Assembly (NCBI RefSeq): GCF_009755665.1
Contig: NZ_CP046622.1
Span: forward strand, 2,480,001-2,544,000
Origin: Variovorax paradoxus
GTDB lineage: Bacteria > Pseudomonadota > Gammaproteobacteria > Burkholderiales > Burkholderiaceae_C
Direction: 5' to 3'
DNA length: 64,000 nt
The translations under genes and the position numbers were made by a program. The notes below the pieces were generated by a model. The model was not told the DNA's origin. It searched no databases and was given only the letters and a program-made list of their open reading frames with translations. Below, one piece after another: positions 6,685-49,966 of the stretch (position 1 is the first letter of the stretch; every line of letters begins with the position of its first letter).

Positions 6685-8193
6685 ATGTCGGCAGCACTCT
6701 TGCAGGCTTTCTCTATGGTCTTCGAGCCCTACACCATCCTCGTGATGGTGCTGGCCTCGCTCTATGGCCTGTTCGTTGGCGCGGTACCGGGGCTGTCGGC
6801 CACCATGGCGGTTGCGCTCTTGGTGCCGGTCACTTTTTTCATGCCGCCCATTCCCGCCATCGCGGCCATGGTGACGGCCACCGCCATGGCCATTTTCTCG
6901 GGCGACATTCCCGGCTGCCTGCTGCGCATTCCGGGCACGCCCGCATCGGCCGCCTATACCGACGAAGCCTTTGCAATGACGCGCAAGGGCATGGCCGAAA
7001 CCGCACTCGGCGCGGGCCTGGTGTTCTCCGCCGTCGGCGGGCTTTTCGGCACCGTGGTGCTCATCGTGGCGGCGCCGGCACTGGCCGACTTTGCGCTCAA
7101 CTTCAGTTCGTTCGAGTACTTCTGGCTGGTGCTGCTGGGCCTCACTTGCGCGGTGTTCATCACGTCGGACCGGCCGCTCAAGGGCATGGTCACGCTGCTG
7201 CTCGGCCTGCTGGTGGCGTGCGTGGGGCTTGGCAACCCGGCGGGCTTTCCGCGCTTTACCTTCGGCAATGCCGAGATGACCGGCGGCATCGGCATGATCC
7301 CGATGATGATCGGCATGTTCGCCGTTTCGGAGGTGATCCGCTTCGCGGTCGACACGCTGCCGCCGGGCGAGATCGTGGTCGAGAAGGTGGGCCGCGTGCT
7401 CTCGGGCCAATGGGCGCTGGCCAAGAAGTACCCGGTGCAGATATTGCGTGGCAGCGTGCTGGGCACTGCGGTGGGCGCACTGCCAGGTGCTGGCGCCGAC
7501 ATTGCGGCATGGATGTCGTACGCCATGAGCAAGAAATTCTCGAAGGAGCCCGAGAAGTTCGGCACGGGCCATGTCGAAGGCATCGTCGAATCGGGTTCGG
7601 CCAACAACAGCGCGCTGGCCGGCGCGTGGATTCCGGCGCTGGTGTTCGGCATTCCGGGCGACTCGATCACCGCCATCGTGATCGGCGTGCTCTACATGAA
7701 GAACCTCAACCCGGGGCCGACGCTCTTCACCACCAACCCGCAGAACATCTATGCGGTGTTCATGCTGTTCATCATTGCCAACATCATCATGGTTCCGCTG
7801 GGCATCCTGTGCATCAAGGTGGCCAAGCGCATCTTGCGGGTGCCGCGCAACGTGCTGATGCCGCTCATCCTGCTGTTCTGCATCGTGGGCTCATTTGCCA
7901 TCAACAACTCGCTGTTCGACGTGGGCGTGATGCTCGTTGCCGGCATCGTGGCCTACCTGCTCGAGGAAAACGGTTTTCCGATTGCGCCCGCCATTCTGGG
8001 CGTGGTGCTCGGCGGCATGCTCGAGGAGAACTTCATCACCTCCATGATCAAGTCCGGCGGCAACCTCGCGGGTTTCGTGTCGCGGCCCATTGCCGCTTCG
8101 CTGGCAGCGGTGGTTGTGCTGGTGTGGCTTGCGCCGCTGCTTCGAAAGCTGTGGGTGAGGGGGCGGCGCACTGCTTCATCTACTGCAGCTTGA
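6685..8193 (+). CDS. tctA: TctA-type large membrane subunit
   Basis: A 502-aa polytopic transporter subunit of the TctA family with about ten to twelve hydrophobic helices. Typical conserved blocks are GAVPGLSATMAVALLVPVTF near residue 32, SGDIPGCLLRIPGTPASAA near 72, and the second-half counterpart ALPGAGADIAAW followed by SANNSALAGAWIPALVFGIPGD. It couples uptake of the TctC-bound carboxylate to an ion gradient (family knowledge). Its 3' end overlaps the convergent MarR-GNAT gene by 14 bases. Confidence 0.94.
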   Translation: MSAALLQAFSMVFEPYTILVMVLASLYGLFVGAVPGLSATMAVALLVPVTFFMPPIPAIAAMVTATAMAIFSGDIPGCLLRIPGTPASAAYTDEAFAMTRKGMAETALGAGLVFSAVGGLFGTVVLIVAAPALADFALNFSSFEYFWLVLLGLTCAVFITSDRPLKGMVTLLLGLLVACVGLGNPAGFPRFTFGNAEMTGGIGMIPMMIGMFAVSEVIRFAVDTLPPGEIVVEKVGRVLSGQWALAKKYPVQILRGSVLGTAVGALPGAGADIAAWMSYAMSKKFSKEPEKFGTGHVEGIVESGSANNSALAGAWIPALVFGIPGDSITAIVIGVLYMKNLNPGPTLFTTNPQNIYAVFMLFIIANIIMVPLGILCIKVAKRILRVPRNVLMPLILLFCIVGSFAINNSLFDVGVMLVAGIVAYLLEENGFPIAPAILGVVLGGMLEENFITSMIKSGGNLAGFVSRPIAASLAAVVVLVWLAPLLRKLWVRGRRTASSTAA

Positions 8194-23791: not shown

Positions 23792-25093
23792 ATGAGCAAG
23801 AGCATCAAACAAAAGAAAACTCAGGGCGCGAATTGGCCATTTCTGGCAATTCTGATCTGCTTGGTGGCAGGTTTGCTCGTTGATCAACAAGCATGGATCG
23901 TTGTTACGTCGGCAACGTTGGTGCCAGTATTATTTTTATGGCTCATCTACGCCTACACCTACAAGGATGAAGGCAGTGTCAGACTTTCTTACATATGGGG
24001 CCTCCTCGGATTTGCGATGCTTGTTTTTGGAATCTACGCGGATCCGAAATACATCAACCCAGGCGTGGGTTCTGTGATTATAAATATAAGTGGAACATTG
24101 ATATCGCTTTCGGTAATCGGGGTGATTTTGCAGTTGAAGGATACCAAAGAGTATTTTGCGTCGACTCTTTCGGATTTGATTATGAAAGAGAGTTATGTTG
24201 AGAAACTCAATCGAACGCAACTTGAAAAACTTCAAAAAACCGTGTTAGAGCGCTATTTCGAGAATTCAAACGACTTCAATCGTGAAAATAGCTTTTACAG
24301 ATTTTTCAGCACAAATTTGCAAAACTATATTGGCTCCCCTTATAGAGAGCATTATCGAAATACTCTTTCGATCACTGCGCTAGAAGATGAGGCTGCGCCC
24401 TTGGCGGGTGGAAGAATATGTCTGATTACCGACGACCTTACCTATCAGTTGCGATCGATGGGTGATGACTTGCAAAAAGACATTCGGTGGCAAGCGTCAA
24501 AAGATGAAATTAGACAGCTTCAGAGTTTTTCCGTCCACATAGGGTCTAAAAAACTCTTCGAATGGCCTTCGGAACAGAACCAAGACAATACTTCCGATTT
24601 GATTGAGCATAATTTTGCGCAAAATCCTGAAGACGGCATTTCTCTAGTCATTCAACTTGAACGACTGTCGCAATCGGATGCGACGGTTCGAAAGGAGTAT
24701 GCTGATGGGGCAATCGTAAAAATCTCTGCAAAGTACTTGGCTACGAATTACAAGTCGATAACCGCAAAGTTGCTATTCCCAACGAAAGGCTTTTCGCTTA
24801 GCGTATTTCATCCTTCGGACATTCGTTGTAAAGTCGAGTCATATGGATTTAATATGGAGACGCACGCATGCGAGCACACCAATACACCGCAAGGCTTTAC
24901 TTTGAATTATTCGGACTGGATGCTTCCTTATAGTGGGGTTTATGTTGCGATTGAGGAGGCTGACTTAGTCGGCCAAAAGGCACCTTCTACTGTTGATGGG
25001 GAAGATTTAGACGCATCTGTGGTGATTGCTGTGACTGAGAGCGAGCAATCATCTGAGGGATTTAACGAAGAAGGGAAATTGCTCCATGGGTAA
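23792..25093 (+). CDS. Membrane-anchored protein of unknown function, possible defence effector
   Basis: A 433-aa protein. The N-terminal 120 residues contain three to four hydrophobic helices (WPFLAILICLVAGLLV; WIVVTSATLVPVLFLWLIYA; IWGLLGFAMLVFGIYA; SVIINISGTLISLSVIGVIL). A charged helical section follows (residues about 130-165, KLNRTQLEKLQKTVLERYF), then a beta-rich cytoplasmic domain of about 250 residues. I do not recognise the soluble domain. Codon use is AT-rich and foreign to the neighbourhood. It overlaps the next gene by 8 bases (ATGGGTAA), so the pair is one operon. A membrane N-terminus with a sensor-like C-terminus is common among abortive-infection effectors (inference). Confidence 0.7.
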   Translation: MSKSIKQKKTQGANWPFLAILICLVAGLLVDQQAWIVVTSATLVPVLFLWLIYAYTYKDEGSVRLSYIWGLLGFAMLVFGIYADPKYINPGVGSVIINISGTLISLSVIGVILQLKDTKEYFASTLSDLIMKESYVEKLNRTQLEKLQKTVLERYFENSNDFNRENSFYRFFSTNLQNYIGSPYREHYRNTLSITALEDEAAPLAGGRICLITDDLTYQLRSMGDDLQKDIRWQASKDEIRQLQSFSVHIGSKKLFEWPSEQNQDNTSDLIEHNFAQNPEDGISLVIQLERLSQSDATVRKEYADGAIVKISAKYLATNYKSITAKLLFPTKGFSLSVFHPSDIRCKVESYGFNMETHACEHTNTPQGFTLNYSDWMLPYSGVYVAIEEADLVGQKAPSTVDGEDLDASVVIAVTESEQSSEGFNEEGKLLHG

Positions 25094-25738: not shown

Positions 25739-28700
25739 CTACCAGTCGCTAGTCCGTTCCACTGGCTTTATTGCCGCAGAGAAAACGAGCCCACCGCTCG
25801 CTGCCAGAACGCCCGCTGCACCTTTGCTACGGTAGCGGACCTTACTCTGCGAGTGCTTTTCGCTGTAGTATTCAATTCTGACTAGAACTACCAGGCTACG
25901 ACCAGTCGCCGCAAGGTATTGCCTCAAAGTCCGCGCGTCGCACAGTAAGGCCTGAGCGGATAGCTTTCTCTCGTGCTCTCCATATCCTCGACGCTCGCCC
26001 CAAGCGATAGAACGCATCACCTCCTCCCCTTCCTCGTTGATCCAACTTCGCGCGAATGGATCAGCTGCGGACACGCCAGCCATCGCACGAAACGCGGAAT
26101 CGGGCATTGCTCGCGTGTTTGCCGAAGTCGAACAGAAGGGATCGAACTCGTCCCATCCAGGGCTGGTGTCCACCGTGACTATCCAAGGCTCGAAAGGTAA
26201 GCGGGAATCGGACTCTTGTTGGTCGGTTCCCCGGTACTGTCGATGGCGAGGCAGCCAAACATCATGACTCTTCTTCGCTGCGAGGGCGCTGCACGCCCCA
26301 ATTGCTTTGTCTGTCTTGATCATGGCTGTGTGCACATAAATCTTGACATCGTCGCGGCTCTCCCAAATGCCTTCGGCCACGATGGCGGCGAGAGCTCTTT
26401 CATTAGAGATTCCCGCCAAACTCAAGAGGGTAGGGACATCTGAGATCAATTCATCGCTGTCGCTTCCTTTGGAGCGCAGTCTGTAATTCGCTGCTGCGGG
26501 ATAGGGGTCGGTACCATCGCTTAACCATAGACCGTCGATGCGACTTAGAGCATGCCGATGAATAAACTCTCGCCAAGGATCTCTATCCCACTCGTCGATC
26601 ATGGCCAATGACTTCGCGGCCCGCAATCTCCCGGCGACCACGAAAAGCGCGTGCCATCCAAGATGGCCTCCGTAGCTGCGGAAACGTCCAGCTGCGTCCG
26701 ACCGCCTTCCACTCGAATATCGCCCGTACTGGTCGTACATGCCAGGTGACTGGGGGTCCCAACTGGAGGCCTGCTCCTCCAGTAGTTCGGCAATTTTCCA
26801 TGCCGGAACACCAAATGCAGCGCCCAGCGGTGGAGTCTCGTGCTTTCGAAAGTCGTAATCCAGCGAGAACTTGAATTCTGAGGCCGGCACCCCCACCGGG
26901 CGGTATGGGTCACTTGAAGTCCGCGGATACTTCACGCGAGGTCCACGTGCCGGGTCATTTTCGACTAGCAAGCGTTGGAGCTTTAGCTTCTCCGCAAGAT
27001 CCTTCTGGGCGCAAAGCAGTGCGTTAACAGCCACGCTTTGCATGAGGACATGCGGAGTTGCTGGCGTGAACGCCTCTTCAAGTAAGAAAACCTGATATCG
27101 ATCCACCAATTCCGAATGATCTTTGGCGGCTCGCGCCAACGCTAAGAGCAGCCACAGGCGAGCGTCCCACAAGTGAAATTTCATTGATGGCGCGAGAAAC
27201 GGTCCACCTTTCCCGCTCCGGAATAGTATTACCAGCTCATCGACCACTGCCATTCGATTCGAGTCAATCAGGTTTCGAATCGCGTGAACTGCTCGCCAGC
27301 GTTCAAATGCATCAGCCGAAGCCAATCTCGTCCATATCACACCTGCAACGATGCAATCCTCATCCAAGCCCGGATCAAAGTCTGCTCGGAATGCGCCATC
27401 GCCAAAGTCTCCTGCCATCGCGAGAGCAGAACTGCTTAGGAGGCGATTTAGCGCGAGCTGCACAGCTGCGCCATCGTCGCCTTCCGCAACAAACACCGCC
27501 AATTGCAGCCAATGTCTGGCGTTCGATGCGACCGACAGTTGGGTCAAGTTGCTAGCCAGCACTAGTGCTGCCCGATCGTGAGGCATCCCACCGAGCTTAG
27601 CGATGCGCTCAAATGTGCGCGAAAACCCCCAATTCAATCCAACGAGTTCCGCTGCATGCCGGACAAGAACGCGTTCAAAAATGACTTCCCGCCGCGCCCG
27701 GAGCGCGGGCGAGTGAGCTTCCCACTCTCGGAGGATCTCCTCGACAAGGTCCAATCGCAGATCCAGTTCAAGACCTTCGACTTCTGTCAGTAAATCCACA
27801 AAAGCCGCCCGACGAGCAATCGGGACTCGCTTGGCAAGCGCGCGGCAGAATCTTCTTCTTGCATCCCATGCTCCATCCATACTTTTGATGATTCGGAGTG
27901 AACCTGCTACTGATGCGATGTCAAGAGGAGGGCAGGTAGCGCCCATTGTCCTTATTGACTTCTCGTCTTTCTCCTGCTTCACAGCTCTTTGCCGTGCATA
28001 TCGCTGGCTCTCGACTCCAAGATCAGCACCGCGTGAGGTGGATGGCTCCTTGAGTGAGGAAAAGAAGGCCACTCTTTCGGCCAAATAAGCGAGAGCTGCC
28101 GACTTAGTCGGCAGCCGTTTCGAGATTGCCTCCCGCAGTCGTTCATATGAATAAGATGAAGAAGTCGAAGGTTGATCTTTCTCAAATTTTCGAATTATCT
28201 GGAGGGCCAACTGCTCTGCGCGAGCTGGTTCAGCGTCCAGGAGAACGGCAGCGATGTCACCCCAGGAGAACCAATGGGCTTCGCCAACCTCATCGAGAGT
28301 CAGCAGCGCAAGCGCGGAGTCCACGCATAACTGGCGGCTTCGAACAAGTTCAACGATAAGGGGCGGCGCGCAGTAGCCAAAATCGACGGCTTCTCGCGAA
28401 CACCAACGGCCGATCTGAGCGAGTGACCGAACTCCCTGCGCCGGCACGGCTGCCTGTGCAAACGCATTCCAAGCGAACTTGCTTGGTTCGCCTTGAAAAT
28501 TCATTTCACAAAGATTGGCAAACCGTTGAAAGTTCTCGGGCGGCAATGAGCTGCCTTCCAGCTTTGCCATTAGGGGCATAAGATCTTGAACGGTCTCGTA
28601 ATCTGCCGATCCAAGCGAGTTGAGTTGCTGCATGGAGCGTTGGAAGTAGTGAACGCCATCGTCCGGACTCATTCCCAAAAGAATCGTCGCGATATCAGCC

Positions 28701-31700
28701 AGCAGATCGCCTTTGCGACTTGCATCGTCTTCACGCTCCAAGAGTTTGTCCAGCCACGGAAGGAGTGCTTGACCCGCGCCAGAAGTACATGCGCTATATG
28801 ACAACGCGCGCAGACAATCGACGCCCACCGATGTAGGCAAACTCACTTTGATCGAAATGATCGCAACAAACTGGTCTGCAAAGGCTGAACAGTCACTCCC
28901 GCCGAGTTGAAGCGAGAACAGGGCCATAGATCGTCCCAGGTGGTCTCGCAGCCGACGCGTTGCTTCTCGAAGCATGGAGTGACCGTCTTGCGATTCCACC
29001 CATGCATCAAGGATCGGGAACAAGGGCGCCTTCGGAGGCGTAAGAACTTCCGTCGAAAATAGTTCGCATAGCGGCAACAGCGGCGCAATGCTGTCCGAGA
29101 CGGCGCGCGAGGATTCGTAGCCTTTCGACGTCGACTCTTGACCCCCCGCCGCCTCTGCTGTTGCTCGAAGGCTCGCTTTCTTCTTGATTCTTTCTTCGAT
29201 GTCTTTGGCCGAATAGTCACCTTTAAGTCTTTTGGGCAAACTCTCCCTCGCCTCCCTGGAGAGAATGTCCACGAGTGTTGGCCTTCTTCCACTTGCGACG
29301 GCGGACAGGCACGCAAAAAGAAGCCAGCGCGCGACACTTTCGTCAGGCCAGTTGTCCTGAAACGTGTGATAGCTCGGGCGTCGGATGTGCACTTGCGCGA
29401 GTATCGAACGGGCATGGTGGGGCGAACCCATTCGCAGAGCTATGCCGGCGCTAAGCAGTAGCGCATTCTCAAACGGCAAGTGCTCATCACGTTCGTGATT
29501 TGGGTCGGCGACTTTCGCCCGACACGCTTTAGCTAGGAGTGCCACGAGAGCGGAGCGATCCTCCGTCTCGATCTCAGGCATGGTTTGAATGCAAGCAGCA
29601 TAGATCGCCGGCCCCTTGAGTGGCGCGGCTCGTAGTGTCTCAACGATCGCGCTGGGGGGAATTTGAAGGTGATCGAACACAACTCGAAGAAAATCCTTGG
29701 CCACAAGAAATCCAAACCAAGCGCGCCAGACCCCAAGATCGTTGAAAGCCTTATCAAGCTGCCCCTTGCTTGCCAGGTGTATGGATCTAGCTGCCGCTTC
29801 GATCGAGGTCGGCCCCTTCATCCATTTGTCTCGGGTGTCTTGGTTGTAGTACCACCGGAGCCATTGGAGACTGCGCTCAGCATGAAGCGCCGCCTCCGAC
29901 TCGTCGCCCATCAGAAGATGAGCGATTGTTAGCCGGGCATGGCGTGCGCCCGGCCATGTTGTGCGAACTTCGAACAGTCTACGAAGTGCTTCGGCATCTG
30001 CTGCTGCTGCAACCAGATCAGGATGGGATGCGATAAGGCTATCGAGTCGATCGCCGCTGGCAGCAACCGAAGCGAGTTCGACTAAAAGGCGTATGGCGTG
30101 TGCCTTCTGCCCGCTGCGCGACGACATCGCGAGCGCCGTGGTCAACCGGCGAGTGCGGATGGCACGCTTACCGAAGTCACTTGTCACGCCACTCGGGAGG
30201 TCGTCACTGAATGCTAGATCGACAGCCAGGTCGGCGTCGCCGATCATGTTCAGAAGGCGCGGAAGTGCTCGCGCAGCGTACGCTGAGGTTCTTTGTGCCG
30301 CCGTCAATCGCCGCGCCAAGGCTGCGAGCAGCGCCGAATCGTTACCGTGTCTGGTACGGACAAACGTTTCCGTGGGCTCGTCTCGAAACACAATTCCAAG
30401 TGAGGTGCGATCGAGCAGTGGCGCTAAGTCGGCGGCAAAACTCTCTATCGCGGCGTGCGAGAGGCCGATCGCCGCTGCATATTCGTTGACGGGAACAGGC
30501 GGTGGAAGGACGGTCAGACCGCACAGGAACGCACGAACTGCTTCATTCAATCCTTGCTTCTCTACATATGCCATAGCGCGATCTAATCTGCGCTGAATTA
30601 GCTCTTCAACTTGAATCGGCGCATCCGAATGATCGGGACGTCGGACTAGTGCATCCCATTCTTCCACCAAGTGATTAAGAACTCGCGCATTGCCTTCCGA
30701 GCGAACCTGGGCAATGTCAATCTCCGCGTCGGCTAGTGCGTTTACACGAGCAGAAAGAAACGCCCTCGTTTCCTCTCGCGTAAACGAAGGGAGTGGCAGC
30801 AAGACCGGATCGGCAGTACCGGCTGTTATTCCGATCCGTTCGGTTCTGCAGCTGGCGATCAGATCCACGCCATCTGGCGTCCCGAGCTGCGAGAAGGTCT
30901 CCATAAGCAGAGTGGGAAATGCCTTCTCGTGCTGGTCGATCCCTTGCTGAGCTGCATTATCTGCAGCGTCCAACAATATGAACAAACGAGCCTTCTTATT
31001 CTCGATGCGAAGTGTCGTTATCGCCTGATTGAACCGTCGCCTCGCCGTGCTTAGCAAGTCGGCGAGTAGAACAGGGCCAGGAATGATTGGGTCGCAGAGT
31101 CCGCGCGACGCCAAAGCATTCACAATGTGAAGTAGCCCTTTGATGGGCAAATGCCTGGAATCCTCGACTGACCGATAGTTACCTCCACCGAAGCAATCGA
31201 ACAGAATCACCTCGCCACATTCCATCAGCCTGGATGCCAGACCCTGCATGAAAACTGTTTTACCTACTCCTCCAGCCGCGTGAACCAAAACAGGTTTATT
31301 CAGACAAAGAGTTGATACCAGACCATTCTCAACTTCTGGTCGAGCTACAACTGGTCCAACGTCGACGAAGCTAGCGGGAGCTGGCAAGAGGTCACGGTCA
31401 TCCGCGACGCCCAACGCGCTTAGGACGTCCACCAGGCGCACGACGTTCCTGCCCTGCCCCTCAGTTCCAGCCTTCGATCGCAGCAGAGCTTTTAGCGAGC
31501 CGAGTCGGCCATGCGCAACGTAGTCGGCAGACACCGACCAGTCGACAATTCGGGTAGAAACGTCTGACTTGAGCGCAGTTAACGAGCCTGTGGCACCTCG
31601 AAGTTCGAATCGCGAGAGGAAGCTTTGTATGACGACGGGAGACAGTCCGCATGCATCGTAGATTTGGTTTGCCTGTTGGATCGTCTGTAGATCGAGACTG

Positions 31701-32146
31701 TCCGTCCCCTCCGCAAGCTTTGAGAGTGCGGACGAGAAGTGGCTGTCGATTGGACGATTCGTAACGATGCTGAAACGGAGCTTTCTTTCGGTCTTTGCCA
31801 TACCGAATTTCTTGCGATGATCTCGCTCTGCTTCCGCAAACTTCACGAATGTCTTCTTCGCATCCGACGCGACGAACGGCTTGTATTGGCTTGCGATCGA
31901 GTACTTGAACTGTGAGACCTCGACGCGCTTAGCGGACTCGAAGGAACAGCCATCGCCGTAATAGAGAACGAGGTCTGCGATTTCCGATGCGGCGGAGGAA
32001 ACATGGTCCCCGTCTTGCATGGAAAAGCCCTCGACGGCAATTCCGACCAGCTCGTCCCGAGGCATCAAGAGTTCAAGTGAGCGACGCGCCGCCCACGTCT
32101 CATGGAACTCATTGCCGTCCTTTGCTGCTCTAGATTTTTCGACCAA
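25739..32146 (-). CDS. Giant nuclease-STAND NTPase, probable antiphage defence protein
   Basis: A 2135-aa protein. Residues about 10-180 look like a Cap4/DUF4297-type PD-(D/E)xK nuclease: NEFHETWAARRSLELL, Asp58 in EIADLVLYY, and the E-x-x-Q-x-K core at Glu76, Gln79 and Lys81 (VEVSQFKYS). Residues about 265-560 form a STAND P-loop NTPase with Walker A AAGGVGKT (290-297) and Walker B LFILLDAAD (388-396). The remaining 1500 residues are helical, probably TPR/HEAT-like sensor repeats. Domain order matches Avs-type and related STAND defence proteins, which oligomerise on sensing phage proteins and cleave DNA. Translation starts at TTG (32146) with GAGGAGG at 32155-32161. Its exact subfamily is not recognised. 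Confidence 0.82.
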   Translation of the reverse strand: MVEKSRAAKDGNEFHETWAARRSLELLMPRDELVGIAVEGFSMQDGDHVSSAASEIADLVLYYGDGCSFESAKRVEVSQFKYSIASQYKPFVASDAKKTFVKFAEAERDHRKKFGMAKTERKLRFSIVTNRPIDSHFSSALSKLAEGTDSLDLQTIQQANQIYDACGLSPVVIQSFLSRFELRGATGSLTALKSDVSTRIVDWSVSADYVAHGRLGSLKALLRSKAGTEGQGRNVVRLVDVLSALGVADDRDLLPAPASFVDVGPVVARPEVENGLVSTLCLNKPVLVHAAGGVGKTVFMQGLASRLMECGEVILFDCFGGGNYRSVEDSRHLPIKGLLHIVNALASRGLCDPIIPGPVLLADLLSTARRRFNQAITTLRIENKKARLFILLDAADNAAQQGIDQHEKAFPTLLMETFSQLGTPDGVDLIASCRTERIGITAGTADPVLLPLPSFTREETRAFLSARVNALADAEIDIAQVRSEGNARVLNHLVEEWDALVRRPDHSDAPIQVEELIQRRLDRAMAYVEKQGLNEAVRAFLCGLTVLPPPVPVNEYAAAIGLSHAAIESFAADLAPLLDRTSLGIVFRDEPTETFVRTRHGNDSALLAALARRLTAAQRTSAYAARALPRLLNMIGDADLAVDLAFSDDLPSGVTSDFGKRAIRTRRLTTALAMSSRSGQKAHAIRLLVELASVAASGDRLDSLIASHPDLVAAAADAEALRRLFEVRTTWPGARHARLTIAHLLMGDESEAALHAERSLQWLRWYYNQDTRDKWMKGPTSIEAAARSIHLASKGQLDKAFNDLGVWRAWFGFLVAKDFLRVVFDHLQIPPSAIVETLRAAPLKGPAIYAACIQTMPEIETEDRSALVALLAKACRAKVADPNHERDEHLPFENALLLSAGIALRMGSPHHARSILAQVHIRRPSYHTFQDNWPDESVARWLLFACLSAVASGRRPTLVDILSREARESLPKRLKGDYSAKDIEERIKKKASLRATAEAAGGQESTSKGYESSRAVSDSIAPLLPLCELFSTEVLTPPKAPLFPILDAWVESQDGHSMLREATRRLRDHLGRSMALFSLQLGGSDCSAFADQFVAIISIKVSLPTSVGVDCLRALSYSACTSGAGQALLPWLDKLLEREDDASRKGDLLADIATILLGMSPDDGVHYFQRSMQQLNSLGSADYETVQDLMPLMAKLEGSSLPPENFQRFANLCEMNFQGEPSKFAWNAFAQAAVPAQGVRSLAQIGRWCSREAVDFGYCAPPLIVELVRSRQLCVDSALALLTLDEVGEAHWFSWGDIAAVLLDAEPARAEQLALQIIRKFEKDQPSTSSSYSYERLREAISKRLPTKSAALAYLAERVAFFSSLKEPSTSRGADLGVESQRYARQRAVKQEKDEKSIRTMGATCPPLDIASVAGSLRIIKSMDGAWDARRRFCRALAKRVPIARRAAFVDLLTEVEGLELDLRLDLVEEILREWEAHSPALRARREVIFERVLVRHAAELVGLNWGFSRTFERIAKLGGMPHDRAALVLASNLTQLSVASNARHWLQLAVFVAEGDDGAAVQLALNRLLSSSALAMAGDFGDGAFRADFDPGLDEDCIVAGVIWTRLASADAFERWRAVHAIRNLIDSNRMAVVDELVILFRSGKGGPFLAPSMKFHLWDARLWLLLALARAAKDHSELVDRYQVFLLEEAFTPATPHVLMQSVAVNALLCAQKDLAEKLKLQRLLVENDPARGPRVKYPRTSSDPYRPVGVPASEFKFSLDYDFRKHETPPLGAAFGVPAWKIAELLEEQASSWDPQSPGMYDQYGRYSSGRRSDAAGRFRSYGGHLGWHALFVVAGRLRAAKSLAMIDEWDRDPWREFIHRHALSRIDGLWLSDGTDPYPAAANYRLRSKGSDSDELISDVPTLLSLAGISNERALAAIVAEGIWESRDDVKIYVHTAMIKTDKAIGACSALAAKKSHDVWLPRHRQYRGTDQQESDSRLPFEPWIVTVDTSPGWDEFDPFCSTSANTRAMPDSAFRAMAGVSAADPFARSWINEEGEEVMRSIAWGERRGYGEHERKLSAQALLCDARTLRQYLAATGRSLVVLVRIEYYSEKHSQSKVRYRSKGAAGVLAASGGLVFSAAIKPVERTSDW

Positions 32147-32537: not shown

Positions 32538-35500
32538 TCAGAGGCCCAGCCGGATTTCCACAAGCGGCGTTTCCCAGTGATCGACCTGCAGCGCCGGCCA
32601 GTACTCCTCGGGCGTCTGAGACCGGGTTCGCACCATGACTGCAACCACGGAGGCGACGCCTTGTTGGAGGGGCGCTGGATCTATGCTCGCGGCCAGCCGG
32701 CCAACGATCTGTCCAGATACCGAGTGGACTAACCGGTCCTTGATCTCGACGAGATCGCCGGACCGCAAAGCAGCAACTGCGCGATGAACTGGCTGGGTGG
32801 ACGACGCCCGTCCGGCAAATCCAATGTCCATGCTGGCGGGGCCGAGCATGACGTAGCGGCGTTCCAGATCCGCTCGATGTTGTGGGCGGTCCCTGGGCAA
32901 CTGGTCGTGGACGCCGTTGACAGTCCCAAGGTCGACGAGATAGGGGCTGCGTCCACCCTCAGCGCGCATCAGGCTCAGCGACTGTCGGGCGCGGGTCATG
33001 GCCACGTAGAGAAGCCGCCGCTCATCTTCTTCGTCCCAGCGCCAGTCGGCGCAGTCCATCACGATGACGTGGTCGAACTCCAGTCCCTTGGCGCCATGTG
33101 CAGTCATGAGTTTGATGGCGCTCTCGCGGCCGTCCCGTCGCATTTCGCCGGAGGCTTCATAGAAGAGGTCGAGCGCCTCGGCGGCTGGAACGACGTCTGC
33201 CTGCAGTGTGGCGGCGACGTCATCGACGATATCGAGGAGATCCAGCAGCGCAGCATTTCTGGGCTGGGCGCGCTGCAGATGGCTCAGGGATCTGCGCAGC
33301 GCGCCGAGTCGCACCATGCGCAGTTGTCGCCGCCTCAGTGCCTGGGCCAATGCCCAGCCTTCGCGCGTCCGCATCAGCGTGATCCGTCCCTTGGACGCCT
33401 CCGGGCCGGTGATCTCGCAGGGCAGCCCTTGGACATCGCAAATAGCCCTCATCTTTTCCAGTGGCGCATGCGTGCGGCAAAGCACCGCGATCTCCGAGAG
33501 CTTGACCGTCGGATCGATGCGCCGGAGGCGCTCGATCTCCGCATGGACCAGTTGGACCTGAAGGTTCGGGTCAGCCGGACTGGTGATCAACCGTACCGCG
33601 CCACGGCTTTCCTGGTCGATCGTGGCCCATCGGCCCCCTGGTGGATCGTCCTTGCGCCGAGCGTCGATCCGGATCGGGTGATCGACCTTCATGCGATTGG
33701 CACCGCGCTGGATCACATGGTTCGCGGCCGAGATGATGTTCTGGGTGGAGCGGAAGTTCTCGACCAGGTAGGTGAGCTCCCCTTCATAGTCAGCCCGGAA
33801 GCGCCGGATGAACTCGATGTTCGCGCCCTTGAAGGAGTAGATGTTCTGGTCATCGTCACCAACGGCCATGATGCTCAGCTTGCTTTCGGCCTCTGCGCGC
33901 CGGCGGCCGGCGAGGGCGCTGACCAGCGCGTACTGCTGCTCGTCGATGTCCTGGTACTCGTCGACGAAGATGTATTCGTAGCCCTGCAGCAGGCGGTCGC
34001 GAACCTCGTCCGCGTCGATCAGGGCCGAGCTCTTGCCTTCGAGCAGGTCGACGGCATCCTGAAGCATCTTCCTGAAGTCGACGCTGCTGGATGTGCGTTC
34101 GGCGCCCGCCAGACTGGTTCCGGTCAATCGCAGCGCCATGGCGTGATAGGTCATGACCAGCACGCCCCGCGCGTCGTCTCCGGCGAGCGCCACCAGTCGG
34201 CGCCGCAGCTGGATGGCCGCCCCCCGGTTGTAGGCCAGCGCGATGATGCGCCCCGGACTCACGCGCAGTACGCGCAGCAGGTAGGCGATGCGATGGACGA
34301 TCACCCGCGTCTTGCCGGAACCCGGACCCGCCAGGACGAGGTGATTGCCTGTCCGGGGCTGCGTGACCAGGGCTTGCTGCACGGGGTGCTGCAGGTCATC
34401 GACTATGCGCTGGTAGGACTCGTCGGTGGTCTTGCGCTCCAGCAGGTCGGTGCGTCCGCGGAAGAATTCCTTGATGAACTGCTTGTGGGGCAATGTGAAG
34501 TACGCTTTAACCAGGGCAAGCGCTTTCGCCGGATCTTCCGCGCCCAGCTTGGCGTACTCGTGCATGACGTGCGTCTGCAGCGTCCGTTCCTTGTAGAACT
34601 CTTCCAGGGGTGCAAACGATGCTTGGTTGAACCGCCTGGCGGTGTCCTCGTCCATCTGGATGGTCATCGCAGAGCGGAAGACAGACCTGCCTTTGTCCAG
34701 TTCGAGCACACGCGTCTGATGAAGGTAGAGCAGCGCGTTCTCCAGCGCCACGTCGGGCTCGCGCAGCTGGGTCTTCAGAACCAAATCGTCACTGAGCGCG
34801 TCGATCAGTGCCTGGGCCTTGCACTCGACCAGGCATGCGCCTTTGACGCCGTCCGGCACCTCTGCAAGCAGCCGCGTGAGCGTGACTTGGGCGACGGCAC
34901 GTCGCAGTTCGCAGATTCTGCGAATCTGGGACCAAGGCCGGCGCACGGTGACGCGCAGGGTGTCCTCGCCCAGCGACTGCAGCTGGATCATGCTGCGCTT
35001 GTCGTTACCGGCGCCGAAACCGTCGGCCATGGATCGCAAGCAGGCCCGGACCTGTGCGGGGTCGAGCTGTCCCTTCTCGTCGTCGAGCTTCAGACGTTCG
35101 CGCAGTTCGGTGCAGACCGCTCGGAGATTCAGGTGTTGTTGCGCCTCGTCCTGATCTGCGTCCGGGGCGCTTTCAGCCATGAGGTCGATGAGCTCCTTCT
35201 CCATGGCGCTCAGATATTCGAGGCGAGATGCGGACGCGCCCCTCACGCCGCGCATCAGGCGCACCGTCAGTCCGAGGTCATTGACCAGGATGCCCAGCTT
35301 GGCCAATTGGTAAACGATGCGAAAGCACTCCTCCGGTCGGATGCCCGCGTCGAGCATGAGCTCGTCTGTGCTCAGTCCCTCGGGCGTGTCGGAGCGGAAC
35401 AGGGCTGTGGCGACAGCGAGGAATTTCTGCTGAACGCTGGCGGAAAAATCCGCCTTGTCGATGCGATCCTTGGCTTCCTGCAGTGAGGTCACCCGAAGAC

Positions 35501-37688
35501 TGGCAGGAAAGACTTTGGTGGCATTCTCGTTGCGCTTCAGGAAACCATGGCGCTCAAGCCACGACAGCGCCGTGGTGACCTTGGTGGAGGCGTCAGGGGC
35601 ATCAATCTCTATGCCGGTTCCGACGCTTTGCGCGAGCAGCTCTTTCGCTGAGATGACGATCTCATCTTTTCCCAGCTTCTTGGCCTGGAAGCGCAAGGCA
35701 CGCAGCAGTCCGATGAAATCCCGCTGCGACAGCTGGGAGGTGGAGGACAGGCGGAACTGGGTTTCGACATCCTTGGGGTCGAACAGCAGGACGCATTTGG
35801 CTTCGTCGCCATCGCGCCCGGCTCTTCCAGCTTCCTGGAGGTAGTTCTCCAGGGAGCCGGGAATTTCGGCATGGATCACCAACCGAACGTTGGGCTTGTC
35901 CACACCCATGCCGAACGCGTTCGTGGCGGCGATCACCTGCAGTTCCCCGTCCAGGAATCGGCGCTGGGTCTCTTTGCGCAGATCGGCGGTGAGCCCGCCG
36001 TGGTAGCAGCCGCATGCGATGCCCTGTTGCGCGACGATCTGCGCGATGGTCTCGGCGCTCTTGCGCGTGGCGCAGAAGACCACGGCGGCATCTTCTCGTC
36101 GCAGACCGTCGCGCAGCAGCTCCACGATGCGCTGCGTCTTCTCGCCGCCCGAGGTCGGCACCACGGCATAGGACAGGTTGGTGCGCTCGTGGCCGCCGAG
36201 GAAGGTCTTCAGTTTGATCTGCAGGCCTTCCTGGAAGTGGTCGCACAGGTCGTCGATGACGTCCGGCTTGGCGGTGGCGGTGAAGCAGGCAACCGGTGCC
36301 TGCCCTGGAAACTGCTCCCGGATGAAGCGCGAGACGTACAGATAGTCCGTGCGGAAGTCGTGCCCCCACTTGGAGAGGCAGTGGGCTTCGTCGAAGACCC
36401 AGGCGGCGATCTCCCGCATGCGGATGGCTTCGACGAAAGTCTTGCTTCTGAACTGCTCGGGCGAGACGAGCACGATACCGATGTCGCCCAGGCGGATGCG
36501 GTCCAGCACATCGCGTCGTTCCAGGGGAGTGAGCATTCCGTTGACGGTTGCCGCGCACTGGATGTCGGCTTTCATCAGGTTGTCCACCTGGTCTCGCATG
36601 AGCGACTGCAATGGAGAGATGACGACGGTCAGCCGCCCTGAGCGGCGGTAGTGGACAAGAGCGGGCAGCTGGTAGCAGATGGATTTGCCGCCGCCGGTGG
36701 GCAAGACGGCCAACAGGCTCTCGCGTGCCAGTCCGGCACTGACGATCGCACGTTGCAGCGATGAGCCATCGGCGGTTGTCGGGTGCGCCCGGAAGCCTGG
36801 CTTGCCGAACAGCGATGACAGCAGCGCCTCGGGGTTGTGGTTCTGGCGGCAATATGGGCAGTCAGGCTGACCGCAGTCGATCTCCCGCAGCTCTGCGATC
36901 AAATGCCTGACGGCAGGCAGTTCGTGAAAGACCCAGTGAGGGAGGATGGAGTTTCCGCCCGCGACGCGGATCCAACCCAGGGCGAACGCCACCGACCAGG
37001 GGTCGCGGCCGGCGGAAGAGGTCGCAATCTCGGCGACCAGCGCCTGCAAACGGGTGGCGCAGCAGCGATCCGCAAAACGGCTGGCTACGATCGGCCCGAC
37101 CGCCTCGCCAGCGGGAGCGGTCTCCTCACGCACCTGCGCCAACAGCGTCGCCATGCTCTCGTCATTGCGAAGCAGAAAGTGCAGCAACGCCAGCCACCAA
37201 GGCCCCTGCGCGTTTGTCTCCAGCAGCGCTTCGACGGCCTCTTCGAACACGTTGAGCGCGATTCGGGCGTCCTTGGTCGGGTTGTTGCGCTCGTCGGAGA
37301 GCAGCTTGTAGCCCTTCACCAGCCGGTGATAGGGATTGCTGGGGAAGGCGAGGGCGGACAGCTCCAGCGTATCCAGCACAGGCCAGTGCAGGCACTCCAG
37401 ATGCGGCAGCTGGGTGCGCATCAGAGGGATGTCGTGGCGCCTGATGTTGTGGCCGAGAAGAACCTGGCCGTCCCGGGCAAAGCTGTTGAGGGATACCGCC
37501 ACCGTGGCTGCCTTGGCAGGAGAACAGGTGCTGCGATAGGTATCCGAGCTGTCCGAACGAACGGCGCCGACAGCGAAAATCTGCTCGCCCTTTTCCGGAT
37601 GGGCTTCGACGTCGACGGAAACGATTCGACCCTCGGCGGCGATGCGCCGAGCACGTGCATGCAGAGAATCGAGGACAGGCGTTTCCAA
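32538..37688 (-). CDS. DEDD exonuclease-RecQ-UvrD helicase fusion
   Basis: A 1716-aa triple-enzyme protein. Residues about 20-165 are a DEDD-type 3'-5' exonuclease (Asp26 and Glu28 in SVDVEAH; GHNIRRHDIPLM with Asp86). A Cys cluster at 272, 277 and 280 with a nearby His may bind zinc. Residues about 310-660 are a RecQ-type SF2 helicase: Walker A LPTGGGKS (329-336), DEAH at 433-436, and QEAGRAGRDG. After winged-helix and linker sections, residues about 1100-1600 are a UvrD/Rep-type SF1 helicase with AGPGSGKT near 1120, VDEYQDID near 1244, GDDDQNIYSFKGA, VENFRST, TAHGAKGLEFD and LLYVAMTRAR. All key motifs look intact. The only in-frame start seen is TTG at 37688, with no clear Shine-Dalgarno. 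Role inferred: DNA processing in phage defence or repair. Confidence 0.88.
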   Translation of the reverse strand: METPVLDSLHARARRIAAEGRIVSVDVEAHPEKGEQIFAVGAVRSDSSDTYRSTCSPAKAATVAVSLNSFARDGQVLLGHNIRRHDIPLMRTQLPHLECLHWPVLDTLELSALAFPSNPYHRLVKGYKLLSDERNNPTKDARIALNVFEEAVEALLETNAQGPWWLALLHFLLRNDESMATLLAQVREETAPAGEAVGPIVASRFADRCCATRLQALVAEIATSSAGRDPWSVAFALGWIRVAGGNSILPHWVFHELPAVRHLIAELREIDCGQPDCPYCRQNHNPEALLSSLFGKPGFRAHPTTADGSSLQRAIVSAGLARESLLAVLPTGGGKSICYQLPALVHYRRSGRLTVVISPLQSLMRDQVDNLMKADIQCAATVNGMLTPLERRDVLDRIRLGDIGIVLVSPEQFRSKTFVEAIRMREIAAWVFDEAHCLSKWGHDFRTDYLYVSRFIREQFPGQAPVACFTATAKPDVIDDLCDHFQEGLQIKLKTFLGGHERTNLSYAVVPTSGGEKTQRIVELLRDGLRREDAAVVFCATRKSAETIAQIVAQQGIACGCYHGGLTADLRKETQRRFLDGELQVIAATNAFGMGVDKPNVRLVIHAEIPGSLENYLQEAGRAGRDGDEAKCVLLFDPKDVETQFRLSSTSQLSQRDFIGLLRALRFQAKKLGKDEIVISAKELLAQSVGTGIEIDAPDASTKVTTALSWLERHGFLKRNENATKVFPASLRVTSLQEAKDRIDKADFSASVQQKFLAVATALFRSDTPEGLSTDELMLDAGIRPEECFRIVYQLAKLGILVNDLGLTVRLMRGVRGASASRLEYLSAMEKELIDLMAESAPDADQDEAQQHLNLRAVCTELRERLKLDDEKGQLDPAQVRACLRSMADGFGAGNDKRSMIQLQSLGEDTLRVTVRRPWSQIRRICELRRAVAQVTLTRLLAEVPDGVKGACLVECKAQALIDALSDDLVLKTQLREPDVALENALLYLHQTRVLELDKGRSVFRSAMTIQMDEDTARRFNQASFAPLEEFYKERTLQTHVMHEYAKLGAEDPAKALALVKAYFTLPHKQFIKEFFRGRTDLLERKTTDESYQRIVDDLQHPVQQALVTQPRTGNHLVLAGPGSGKTRVIVHRIAYLLRVLRVSPGRIIALAYNRGAAIQLRRRLVALAGDDARGVLVMTYHAMALRLTGTSLAGAERTSSSVDFRKMLQDAVDLLEGKSSALIDADEVRDRLLQGYEYIFVDEYQDIDEQQYALVSALAGRRRAEAESKLSIMAVGDDDQNIYSFKGANIEFIRRFRADYEGELTYLVENFRSTQNIISAANHVIQRGANRMKVDHPIRIDARRKDDPPGGRWATIDQESRGAVRLITSPADPNLQVQLVHAEIERLRRIDPTVKLSEIAVLCRTHAPLEKMRAICDVQGLPCEITGPEASKGRITLMRTREGWALAQALRRRQLRMVRLGALRRSLSHLQRAQPRNAALLDLLDIVDDVAATLQADVVPAAEALDLFYEASGEMRRDGRESAIKLMTAHGAKGLEFDHVIVMDCADWRWDEEDERRLLYVAMTRARQSLSLMRAEGGRSPYLVDLGTVNGVHDQLPRDRPQHRADLERRYVMLGPASMDIGFAGRASSTQPVHRAVAALRSGDLVEIKDRLVHSVSGQIVGRLAASIDPAPLQQGVASVVAVMVRTRSQTPEEYWPALQVDHWETPLVEIRLGL

Positions 37689-37859: not shown

Positions 37860-39671
37860 ATGCGTTTGGCTGGACTGCACATAAAAAACTACAAATGCAT
37901 CGGCGATACCGAGCGTCGTCTTCGTATCGACGGTATCGTCGTTTTGATCGGTCAGAACAACGCTGGCAAGTCCACCATTTTGGATGCCTACGAAGCCTTC
38001 GCTTCGGCCGGCGCAGCGCGGGAACACGACGAGTTTCATCGCGAAGACCTGTCTCGACAGATCGAGATCACCGGCGTGTTCAACGAAGTGAATGCCGCAG
38101 ATGAGGATGCCGTTGGAAAGAAATGGACCTATGACGATGCCGAGTACGGCACGTGTTTGAAGGTGCGCTGGGTTTGGAGCAAGCCGGGTGAAAAGGGCTT
38201 GAAGCAGTCTTTCAATCCGGCCACCAATGCCTTTGAAGACGGTGGTATGGGTGGCTGGGATTCGCAAATTCAAAGCCGGATACCGCAGCCATTGCGCATC
38301 CGTCCGACCGAGTCAGTGGAGACGACGCAGACCAAAATTGCTGCGATGCTTAAAGACCACGTCAAGACTCGCCTGAAAGCCGATTCTTCCGCGACGAAGA
38401 ATGCGTTTGCGCAGATCGAGGCTTTGGCAAAATCGATCTTTGATGATTCCAGGGCGGCCTTTGACGACGTTGCTACGCGAATCAATGCTAGCGTGTCCAA
38501 TATTTTTCCCGGTACGGCAGTCGAACTCATTCCCAGGTCCAAAGATGCGTTGAATGAGAACATCATTGGCGCGGACTCCTACCTGAAAGTCACCACGGCC
38601 GGCGGTGGCTCCACGCCGTTGCTTCTGCAGGGCACCGGCTTGCAGCGAGCCTTACTGTGGTCGGCTTTGGCGGTGATGGCTGACAAGGGCGATGCCAAGA
38701 AGAAGCCGGCAGCGGTGGCGGCGCCCAGAATCCTGTTGATCGACGAGCCTGAAGCCTTCCTGCATCCACCGACGATTCGCAGTGCGCGTGACGCGCTCTA
38801 TGACTTCGCCACTGGCAATCCGGACTGGCAAGTCATTGCGACCACACATTCGCCGGTCTTCATCGATCTGTCCAAGAACCACACAACGATCATTCGGGTC
38901 GACGCAGACCCGACCAGCGAACACTACATCTCGACCGATTCGATTTCCTTTGACGAAGATGAGCGTACGCGGTTAAAGATGGTCCGTGCCTGCCACCCCG
39001 TAGTGAACGAGTTTTTCTTCTACAACAACATCGTGTTGGTGGAAGGCCCGACCGAGCACCTGGTGGTCGAGCACGTGGCGGGGTTGATCGGCGCGGATGT
39101 TCATGTGATCGACTGCATGGGCAAAGCCAACGTGCCCCTGTTTGCGCGGATCTTGAACCACTTCAAGGTGCCCTATGTAGCAATCCACGATGCCGACACG
39201 CCGTTCATCAGGCGCAAGGAAAAGCTGGTCAAGAGCGGTACATGGACGATCAACGAACACATCCGGAACGCGGTTGCGCAGTCCAACGGAAGTCATGTAT
39301 TCACACAGTTTCCGCATTTCGAGGGCGAGTTCTTCGGTGAGAATCTGCCGAGCGGCAAGGTAGATCGTGTGCTGGAGGCGCTAGAGAGCAAGCAGTCAAG
39401 CGAGTACCAGCACATCTTTGACACATACAGCCGAGTTCTGATGCGTGATGACGTTGTGATGACAACCACGCAGACGGCGTTCGAAACGAAGCGCGATGCC
39501 CATGTACAGTCGAATGGCCTGCAGAGTGATCCATTGTGGAGCGGGCAAGAAGGTATCGCTGCTTCGATCGTGGTGGCCCAGCAGCCTGCGGCGATTGCGG
39601 TGGCAGCGGTGAAGTCTGCGCTCCCGCTCGCAGACGTTGGACAGGCCGGCGGCGATGCTCCGCTCCAATAG
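37860..39671 (+). CDS. OLD-family ATPase/TOPRIM nuclease (GajA-like)
   Basis: A 603-aa protein. The N-terminal ABC-type ATPase has Walker A GQNNAGKST (31-39), an LQGTGLQRALL signature near residue 260, and Walker B ILLIDEPEAFLHP near 290-302, with ATTHSPVFI after it. The C-terminal TOPRIM domain shows IVLVEGPTEH near 392 (metal-binding Glu), VIDCMGKANVP near 415, and AIHDADTP near 443. This is the architecture of OLD nucleases and of GajA in Gabija. It is divergent from the helicase fusion, 171 bases away, so both may share a regulatory region. The C-terminal Ala-rich tail is unusual. Confidence 0.87.
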   Translation: MRLAGLHIKNYKCIGDTERRLRIDGIVVLIGQNNAGKSTILDAYEAFASAGAAREHDEFHREDLSRQIEITGVFNEVNAADEDAVGKKWTYDDAEYGTCLKVRWVWSKPGEKGLKQSFNPATNAFEDGGMGGWDSQIQSRIPQPLRIRPTESVETTQTKIAAMLKDHVKTRLKADSSATKNAFAQIEALAKSIFDDSRAAFDDVATRINASVSNIFPGTAVELIPRSKDALNENIIGADSYLKVTTAGGGSTPLLLQGTGLQRALLWSALAVMADKGDAKKKPAAVAAPRILLIDEPEAFLHPPTIRSARDALYDFATGNPDWQVIATTHSPVFIDLSKNHTTIIRVDADPTSEHYISTDSISFDEDERTRLKMVRACHPVVNEFFFYNNIVLVEGPTEHLVVEHVAGLIGADVHVIDCMGKANVPLFARILNHFKVPYVAIHDADTPFIRRKEKLVKSGTWTINEHIRNAVAQSNGSHVFTQFPHFEGEFFGENLPSGKVDRVLEALESKQSSEYQHIFDTYSRVLMRDDVVMTTTQTAFETKRDAHVQSNGLQSDPLWSGQEGIAASIVVAQQPAAIAVAAVKSALPLADVGQAGGDAPLQ

Positions 39672-42356: not shown

Positions 42357-42938
42357 ATGACCAAGACCTCTCGACCCAGCCGCGTGATAGGTACCCGGGT
42401 GTCACCCGACACGAAGGCGCGCTTCGCCGCGCTGGCCGCTCGGCATCACCTCAGTGCGTCGAATCTGCTCGCGAAGATGGTCGAGGAAGTGCTCAAGACC
42501 AACGGCGAGAGCTCGCCGGGCTCGGCCGGACAGCGATCCCCCAAAGCATTGGAAAGCGGCGCTGGCGTGACGGACCGCATCACGCTGCGGCTTCGCCAAG
42601 GCGATCGAGCCTTGGCGGCGCGGCGAGCCCGTGCACGCGGGATGAAGACAGGCAGCTACTTGGCCCTCCTAATCCACAACCATGTCCGTGCCGCGGCCGT
42701 GCTGCCGCCCAACGAACTGGATCAGATCAAAGTGATCAACGCTCAGTTGGCCGCGCTGGGGCGACAGCTTCGGATGTTCGGCGTGCCGAACACTTGGTTG
42801 GCGCCAACGGCATCGGATCTCAGCGAAGCGATTGCATCGGTCCGGCGGGACGTCGAGGCGGCACGCGAAGCCACGGCGGCCGTCGTGCGCCGCGACCTCA
42901 TCAGCTGGGAGACCAGCGGCGAGAGGGCCCATGCCTGA
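42357..42938 (+). CDS. mobC: MobC-like mobilisation accessory protein
   Basis: A 193-aa basic protein. The N-terminal 50 residues read as a ribbon-helix-helix DNA-binding fold (VIGTRVSPDTKARFAALAAR then HHLSASNLLAKMVEEVL). A second similar unit, DRITLRLRQGDRALAARRAR, begins near residue 72 and leads into the MobC-type LNQIKVINAQLAALGRQL-like helix (here ELDQIKVINAQLAALGRQLR). MobC proteins bind oriT next to the nick and help the relaxase. It overlaps the relaxase gene by 8 bases, so the two are coupled. Confidence 0.78.
   Translation: MTKTSRPSRVIGTRVSPDTKARFAALAARHHLSASNLLAKMVEEVLKTNGESSPGSAGQRSPKALESGAGVTDRITLRLRQGDRALAARRARARGMKTGSYLALLIHNHVRAAAVLPPNELDQIKVINAQLAALGRQLRMFGVPNTWLAPTASDLSEAIASVRRDVEAAREATAAVVRRDLISWETSGERAHA
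42776..42791. repeat. Third, imperfect copy of the palindrome, inside mobC
   Basis: GTTCGGCGTGCCGAAC lies within the mobC coding region and encodes FGVPN near residue 141. It differs from the perfect core GTTCGGCATGCCGAAC at one central base. Its presence inside the gene suggests either an intragenic operator or a mobile palindromic unit that landed in frame. Confidence 0.8.
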
Positions 42939-44037
42939 GCACGCGGTGCGCGCGCATCGAATCGGCATTGGCGCGGCCCATTCGTCGCGCGACTTGGCGC
43001 TGGACATCGTGAGCTACGGTCGGCGGGGACCGGGTGGCCAGCTGCGCCTCGGCGCCGACCAGATCGCGCAGATCCAGCGCACGGTGGGGCGTACGCCCGA
43101 GGTGATGGTGAAAGTCTCCGGCGGCGGACGGGATATCGGCGGCGTCGAGGCGCACCTGCGCTACATCGGCCGCCACGGCAAGCTGCCGATCGAAACCGAC
43201 GAGGGGCTGACGCCGCAGGGAAGGGGTGCAGCCAGGGAGATCACGGCCGACTGGCAGCTGGAGCTTTGCAGAAGCCAGTACAAGCCGAAACCCGTTCAGG
43301 GGCAGAAAGACACGCGTGCGAAGCTGGTCCACAACATCGTCCTGTCCATGCCCGCTGGCACGCCGCCGGACAAGGTGCTCGCGGCGGCACGCGTCTTCAC
43401 GCGGGAGAACTTCGCGCTGCAATATCGCTACGCCATGGTGCTGCACACCGACCAAGCGCACCCGCATGTGCACCTGGTGGTCAAGTGCGAGCATGAGTTC
43501 GAACCTGGCAAGCGTCTCTACATCCGCAAGCACACGCTGCGTCAATGGCGCGAGCAGTTCGCCGCGCTGATGCGCGAGCAGGGCGTGGCGGCCAACGCGA
43601 CGCCGCGACAGGTACGAGGGCAGATCCGCAAGCCTTACAAGGATGCGATGCATCATAGGCTGCGTGCAATTCGGGCCTTCGCGCAGTTGCCAATCGCAGA
43701 GCGCGATGGACGGCGTGCGCCGAAGCCTTCCACGGCGATGCGCGCGAAATTGGAAAAGGTGTTGGGGGACCTGAAGGCCGGCCAAGTCGGTTCGGAGGCG
43801 GGTCAGGTAAAAATGCTAGATACGCGGCAAGAGGTGTTGGCGGATTGGCAAGCGACGGCGGACATGCTGAGGAAACAAGGCGAAGCGGGATTGGCGGCGC
43901 AGGTGGATCACTTCAGTGCGCGAATGCCCGAGGTGCAGACCGACGATCTGCGGTTGGCTGAACGCTGGACAGACGCAGAAATGAACCGGACGCCGGGGCG
44001 CACGGACTTCAAATTCTTCGAGCCGAAAGTTCGATGA
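42931..44037 (+). CDS. Relaxase (VirD2/MobA-like, HUH type)
   Basis: A 368-aa relaxase. The metal-binding histidine cluster is HTDQAHPHVH with His177, His179 and His181, preceded by His172 and Asp174, the HUH-type third motif. The VEAHLRYIGRHGKLPIETDE stretch precedes it, and LVHNIVLSMPAGTPPDKVL is also typical. The catalytic tyrosine is probably in one of the N-terminal SYGRRG or RYIGR regions. Length is short compared with plasmid relaxases that carry a primase. ATG at 42931 has GAGAGGG before it and overlaps mobC by 8 bases. There is no coupling protein or conjugation pilus gene in the window, so it would need a helper. Confidence 0.83.
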   Translation: MPEHAVRAHRIGIGAAHSSRDLALDIVSYGRRGPGGQLRLGADQIAQIQRTVGRTPEVMVKVSGGGRDIGGVEAHLRYIGRHGKLPIETDEGLTPQGRGAAREITADWQLELCRSQYKPKPVQGQKDTRAKLVHNIVLSMPAGTPPDKVLAAARVFTRENFALQYRYAMVLHTDQAHPHVHLVVKCEHEFEPGKRLYIRKHTLRQWREQFAALMREQGVAANATPRQVRGQIRKPYKDAMHHRLRAIRAFAQLPIAERDGRRAPKPSTAMRAKLEKVLGDLKAGQVGSEAGQVKMLDTRQEVLADWQATADMLRKQGEAGLAAQVDHFSARMPEVQTDDLRLAERWTDAEMNRTPGRTDFKFFEPKVR

Positions 44038-49623: not shown

Positions 49624-49966
49624 GGGAGCGGGTTGTTGTATCCGCTGCGTCGGAGCATCCGGATCTGCAGACAGGCAGGCCAGCGGCGAGGCAACGTTTC
49701 GCAAGCATATCCAGTGCCCAGGCGATCTGTTTAGCGGCAGCTGCTGAGGCTCCGTGCGATTGCCCCTGCATTCCAGTTGGTCTTCCCGCTAAACGAATTG
49801 GCAACTCGCTGGATGAGTTCCGCAGAAGAACCGTAAGCCAGCCCGGTATGGGGCTGGCACAGCCAGAGGGGAGGTCCCTCCGTGTGGGCCGCCCCTCTCC
49901 AAGCGATGCGGGCGGATCCCAAGGCTGCCGATCGGCGGTTCCCAGGAACAATGGGTGAGGCTCTCA
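49624..49966. other. Non-coding gap before the giant RHS gene
   Basis: No gene seen. A hairpin with 8-bp arms (GCCAGCCC 49837-49844, GGGCTGGC 49851-49858) lies in the middle; no T-run follows, so a terminator is doubtful. A weak GGTGAGG sits at 49954-49960, 6 bases before the ATG at 49967. This region must contain the promoter of the giant gene, but no box could be assigned. Confidence 0.4.

Follow-up and report, generated by a model that had tools for sequence, protein, structure and literature searches.

The analysed window is a 64,000-nucleotide stretch of the Variovorax paradoxus genome (contig NZ_CP046622.1, positions 2,480,001 to 2,544,000). Its minus strand carries a long gene, 25739..32146, whose 2135-amino-acid (aa) product, the query, is identified as an Avs3 protein (AVAST type 3, an anti-phage sensor) by its architecture, its fold and the best-matching model; it is neither an NCBI Avs3a equivalog nor part of a two-gene avs3a–avs3b system. 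A first-pass annotation, made from the sequence without database searches, had given the 2135-aa frame at exactly these coordinates, to which only the minus strand has to be added. A protein on record (P0002), 92% identical, starts at the same residue and is equally long. Mononucleotide shuffling of the gene (20 shuffles, each read in three frames) gave stop-free runs of at most 212 codons, against 2135 in the gene itself. The TTG start is also used in a Ramlibacter relative (L004), and a purine-rich stretch, gaggaggcagg, lies upstream of it, ending four bases before the TTG. The G+C content of the gene is 56%, compared with 66% in window positions 1–22998, so the gene looks acquired. Its features are as follows, with conservation counted in rows of the 70-sequence alignment underlying the tree, 35 of which belong to the query's group.

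25739..32146, minus strand: avs3-like gene, 2135 aa, TTG start, TAG stop (open frame; PADLOC, NCBIfam and PDB matches)
31457..32146, minus strand: N-terminal Cap4/DUF4297-type PD-(D/E)xK nuclease domain, residues 1–230
31973..31975, minus strand: putative catalytic Asp58, invariant in 35/35 rows of the group
31904..31912, minus strand: Q79-x-K81, putative nuclease active site, both residues invariant in 35/35 rows of the group
29837..31429, minus strand: STAND NTPase and following region, residues 240–770 (Pfam NACHT; alignment to canonical Avs3a)
31256..31279, minus strand: Walker A motif AAGGVGKT, residues 290–297; K296 invariant in 70/70 rows
30965..30985, minus strand: Walker B motif LFILLDA; D393 invariant in 70/70 rows
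25742..29836, minus strand: sensor, residues 771–2135, helical repeats followed by a beta-rich end
25742..26482, minus strand: beta-rich alpha/beta C-terminal part of the sensor, about residues 1889–2135 (DSSP of the AlphaFold2 (AF2) model)

The protein possesses an N-terminal Cap4/DUF4297-type nuclease, a STAND NTPase with both Walker motifs and an Avs3-type C-terminal sensor. This is the order from which an Avs-type defence protein had been proposed, and homology to Avs3 bears the proposal out. The nuclease core had been read as Asp58 and Glu76-x-x-Gln79-x-Lys81; D58, Q79 and K81 stand, but E76, although present in the query, occurs in only 19 of the 35 rows of its group, and 16 of 28 canonical rows have R or H instead; the conserved core is therefore D58…Q79-x-K81. 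Outside the group, K81 is found in 27/28 canonical and 7/7 third-group rows, the single miss being a gap. The Walker motifs are intact, as had been claimed; within the group, positions G292, G293, G295, K296 and T297 are invariant (35/35), as is R434. The sensor, described at first as about 1500 helical residues, does begin with helical repeats, but it measures about 1365 residues when counted from residue 771, and its last 245 or so are a beta-rich alpha/beta region without helical repeats in the AF2 model.

Relationship to Avs3 and a possible mode of action

The query is matched by the Avs3a models of PADLOC (1.6e-181) and NCBIfam (NF041816; 1e-203, 679.5 bits), and neither collection yields a match to any other family at E up to 0.1; the best model is thus Avs3. 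Pfam NACHT is matched at E 0.0007 (19.9 bits, under the gathering cut-off of 26.7). In the PDB, SeAvs3 (8dgc, 2092 aa; 1.2e-114) alone is matched by sequence at E up to 0.01; the title of this entry describes SeAvs3 with bound phage terminase. The canonical references used here were the Klebsiella variicola plasmid locus L005, a near-twin of SeAvs3 (4396 bits to 8dgc), and L006, both avs3a in NCBI naming. Profile alignment of residues 1–770 with canonical Avs3a gives 30% identity over 752 columns. A structure prediction of the sensor, which the first-pass annotation had suggested, returned the SeAvs3 sensor fold, and both the nuclease and the sensor are predicted to have the folds seen in terminase-bound SeAvs3; the sensor match to 8dgc extends to model residue 1123, which is protein residue 2122.

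An unrooted tree of residues 6–770 was built from 70 sequences (48 database proteins and 22 from loci; L002, L004, L051 and L088–L090 left out). It contains three groups, with bootstrap and SH-like approximate likelihood ratio test (SH-aLRT) values of 100/100 for the query's group (35 rows), 100/99 for the canonical Avs3a group with L005 and L006 (28 rows) and 100/100 for a third group (7 rows). By this sequence comparison the query belongs to a sister group of canonical Avs3a, on a long stem of 0.67 changes per site. The protein had been left outside any named subtype: homology to Avs3 along nearly the full length now gives it a type, while its sister-group position, its score below the NCBIfam cut-off and the lack of avs3b keep it apart from the canonical form. 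It had also been thought longer than commonly cited Avs proteins, which does not hold: SeAvs3 has 2092 residues, and median lengths are 2157 in the query's group (80 rows, 2123–2329; short proteins P0006, P0049, P0085 and P0087 omitted) and 2085 in the canonical group (17 rows, 2064–2120; P0035, P0045 and P0046 omitted).

The query's group has many members, whose modules stay together. A sensor-only search, which scored just the candidates sharing most words and so gives lower bounds, found at least 68 new proteins, of which at least 59 (P0049–P0107, placed by profile scores and not by the tree) scored best on query-group profiles and at least 9 (P0108–P0116) on canonical ones. Among the 59 are proteins labelled as coming from Pseudomonas, Burkholderia, Desulfobacterales and Aminicenantes. 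Effector swaps were looked for in this set and rejected: the nuclease is identical in type in 56 of the proteins, and the other three (P0049, P0085 and P0087), which begin inside or beside the STAND domain, have no other effector in the 330 residues read.

The query is probably a single-gene, Avs3b-free variant of Avs3. For SeAvs3, binding of a phage protein is described as being followed by tetramerisation, pairing of the nuclease domains and DNA cleavage (PMC11291478, PMC12931631). By homology, a similar mechanism is likely for the query. The C-terminal sensor would bind a folded protein that the phage makes in the infected cell, the likeliest candidate being the large terminase subunit, which may be the target of the whole group. 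Binding would free the STAND NTPase to bind ATP and form a tetramer; the N-terminal nuclease domains would then pair and cut double-stranded DNA, that of the phage as well as that of the host, so that the infection would end at the expense of the cell, with protection against phage as the result. All this would proceed without a small Avs3b partner.

Several observations weigh against this interpretation. The NF041816 score of the query is far below the equivalog cut-off of 2800 bits; three relatives in its group score 666, 738 and 764 bits, and the canonical L005 scores 3076. The sensor is only 17–20% identical to canonical sensors and SeAvs3, with the first part (residues 771–1130) the least similar at 14%, so that binding specificity could have changed; this low identity could leave room for another target. 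The Foldseek superposition of the sensor on 8dgc is loose (TMq 0.63, root-mean-square deviation 9.0), and in both AF2 alignments the sequences of the query's group were mixed with canonical and other Avs3 sequences.

The group might be a separate functional subtype, self-sufficient and Avs3b-independent, whose diverged sensor would read a phage protein, or a class of terminases, not read by canonical Avs3; this is a tentative proposal of rather low probability. It is unlikely, too, that architecture and effector stayed the same and the sensor switched to a phage protein other than terminase, such as a portal, a Ksap1-like or an undescribed protein. Such a switch would fit the long stem branch and the lack of avs3b, and also the contrast between 17% identity to canonical proteins in the sensor and 30% in residues 1–770; members of the Avs family are, moreover, described as sensing different proteins (PMC12931631). 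Against it, Avs sensors with a common target can differ greatly in sequence, and the predicted sensor, including most of its beta-rich end, retains the fold of the terminase-bound SeAvs3 sensor. Given the shared fold, terminase is the more economical guess for the target, although the sensor may, as the first-pass annotation suggested, recognise a phage protein not yet described.

Absence of the partner gene avs3b

In the canonical layout avs3b follows avs3a and overlaps its 3′ end. The earliest possible avs3b start precedes the avs3a stop in all ten measured genome loci outside the query's group, and in the two plasmid references (L005 and L006) the genes overlap as annotated. Of 11 genomes carrying Avs3 proteins of other groups, 10 were positive for Avs3b in whole-genome searches with the NCBIfam model, the exception being G741; none of the six genomes of the query's group was positive, the query's own included. 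A separate search of the query's genome, run with no positive control, was likewise negative. The score exceeded the NCBIfam cut-off in 3 of the 17 genomes and ranged from 253 bits (full-length) down to 65 (partial). Models built from avs3b genes already found detected the gene at 13 of the 14 loci that lie outside the group and at 0 of the 15 that belong to it; among the loci compared, L002, L004, L051 and L088–L090 were assigned by identity or score, and the group locus L045 ends with its contig 295 bases past the frame. From 250 bases before the end of the query gene to 400 bases after it, no same-strand frame of at least 80 codons begins. Avs3b was found neither in the flank of the query gene nor in its genome.

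An ordinary Avs3 whose avs3b only seems missing, being encoded elsewhere or too diverged to see, is very improbable. It would draw on the weakening of the NCBIfam model with distance, on G741, which also shows no avs3b and does not belong to the group, and on frames that overlap the gene end at 2 of 12 group loci (L002 and L043). The model from 12 avs3b genes, however, matches nothing at the group loci, those two overlapping frames included; the gene overlap seen at all ten measured loci outside the group has no counterpart in the window, where no overlapping or near downstream frame reaches 80 codons, and the whole-genome searches were negative in all six genomes of the group.

A shared replacement partner was sought by comparing the flanking frames of 13 group loci, all against all (12–48 kb of the window), and rejected: no set exceeds four loci. 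Every four-locus set consists of L007, L042, L043 and L044, one close subclade with a small gene just upstream of the Avs gene. In L007 it is 7419–7943, encoding a 174-aa protein annotated as DNA-binding and matching the PADLOC candidate PDC-M06B at 4.7e-75, and similar frames occupy this place in L042–L044; it is possibly a subclade-specific regulator. The PADLOC call for the four scanned Avs proteins was Avs3a, not PDC-M06A. Scattered smaller sets join L041 with L042 and L043, L003 with L042, L002 with L004, and L008 with the window. A literature search encountered no use of the word Avs3b, and no title or abstract on such an Avs3b-free group was found; the main Avs structure paper was outside this search, so novelty of the group in print is not claimed.

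Distribution and genomic setting

Presence of the gene is patchy in four overlapping genome samples. Counting its own genome each time, the query's group was found in 4 of 299 genomes of the family (canonical Avs3 in 3, the third group in 2, and one further match near threshold), the copy in G071 having a shorter frame of 1839 codons. The full-length gene occurs in 3 of 101 genomes of the genus (the two besides its own, G1051 and G1069, were assigned on score rather than from the tree); canonical Avs3 occurs in 1, a sensor-only remnant in 1 and a fragment in 1. In the order sample (399 genomes) the group and canonical Avs3 were each found in 2 genomes, and in the phylum sample (398) the group in 2, other Avs3 in 4 and a partial match in 1. 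The remnant lies in the genus mate G1142 (L087:6403-9930, minus strand; 1176 codons) and belongs to the query's group; no nuclease or NTPase of the Avs3-like family was found in the 17 kb around it.

Three genera of two families are represented by L042, L043 and L044, whose residues 6–770 are nearly the same (end branches 0.007–0.014), as is expected of a mobile defence gene. A PADLOC check of 10 hand-picked neighbours, four of them without any match, revealed PifA- and LmuB-like genes at L010, PDC-M62A/B and PDC-M06B at L007 and an NsnA-like gene at L004. Source names such as 'transcriptional regulator' (P0016) and 'NACHT domain-containing protein' (P0003) might suggest a STAND regulator with a house-keeping role, but this can hardly be entertained in view of the invariant nuclease residues, the patchy presence, the near-identity across genera and the defence-type genes adjoining several copies. 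The source names shown for the group, and those at L007, L009 and L010, do not contain 'Avs', so Avs3 is probably under-counted.

Nuclease- and helicase-type neighbours, already pointed out in the first-pass annotation, are present and are listed here together with the gene on the other side of the Avs gene:

23792-25093, plus strand: 433-aa protein, hydrophobic and membrane-like in stretches close to the N-terminus; low G+C, adjoining the Avs gene on the opposite strand
32538..37688, minus strand: fusion of RecQ-type and UvrD-type helicases, 1716 aa (Pfam, NCBIfam, PADLOC)
37860..39671, plus strand: OLD-like AAA ATPase with TOPRIM, 603 aa (PADLOC Old 2.6e-76; Pfam AAA_15, OLD-like_TOPRIM)

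The 433-aa protein has no Pfam or PADLOC match. In the helicase fusion the RecQ-type part spans about residues 290–650 and the UvrD-type part about 1110–1590; close to the N-terminus there is a weak exonuclease match under the cut-off. The Avs gene lies downstream of the fusion on the same strand, 391 bases apart, and no such fusion was found beside the Avs gene in 12 other loci compared. The OLD-like gene is divergent from the fusion. The pairing of OLD and UvrD is reminiscent of Gabija.

Synteny with two genus mates (87–93% identity) breaks at 22998, and with two others at 22805 and 22808. The break at 22998/22999, within a LysR-like fragment (Pfam 25.7 bits, cut-off 28), is the left edge of an acquired island, and G+C falls to the right of it. 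The right edge was looked for and not found; the window contains no tRNA and no Rfam match at gathering score. A NikA-like frame, matched weakly and under the cut-off, precedes a MobA/VirD2-like relaxase (42357-44037, plus strand); the two may be mobilisation genes within the island. Farther along, a stop-free frame of 4728 codons, 49817-64000 on the plus strand and continuing beyond the window end, has 20 RHS-repeat and 11 immunoglobulin-like (Big_3_5) stretches and encodes a giant RHS-type protein. The 2322-aa open reading frame 55724-62692 (minus strand) is probably the antisense shadow of this frame; Pfam, PADLOC and NCBIfam gave no match to it at E up to 0.1.

Comparison with known systems

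Structures of Avs3 and Avs4 were reportedly described by Gao et al. in 2022. SeAvs3 from Salmonella (8dgc) and the query share three modules in identical order along nearly their full length; they differ in size, and the query gene has no avs3b beside it, whereas L005, the near-twin of SeAvs3, carries one. The canonical Avs3a rows have the D, QxK, Walker A K and Walker B D positions in common with the query. Canonical avs3a–avs3b loci (NF041816 and NF041817) resemble it through avs3a homology; the query differs from them by its score, far under the NF041816 cut-off, and in that no second gene was found. With Avs1, Avs2, Avs4 and Avs5 the query shares the STAND antiviral principle, but these proteins have effectors other than that of Avs3. 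The related nucleases of Cap4, HerA-DUF4297 and LmuA depend for sensing on a nucleotide receptor, a HerA partner and an SMC-type partner, respectively, unlike the query.

In bacteria, Avs proteins are the counterparts of NLR immune receptors. An Avs3b-free group that is large and has Avs3 architecture offers a natural comparison for the role of Avs3b and for how far a sensor can diverge yet read the same phage fold. The query is thus a useful variant of the known Avs3 type, not a new kind of system.
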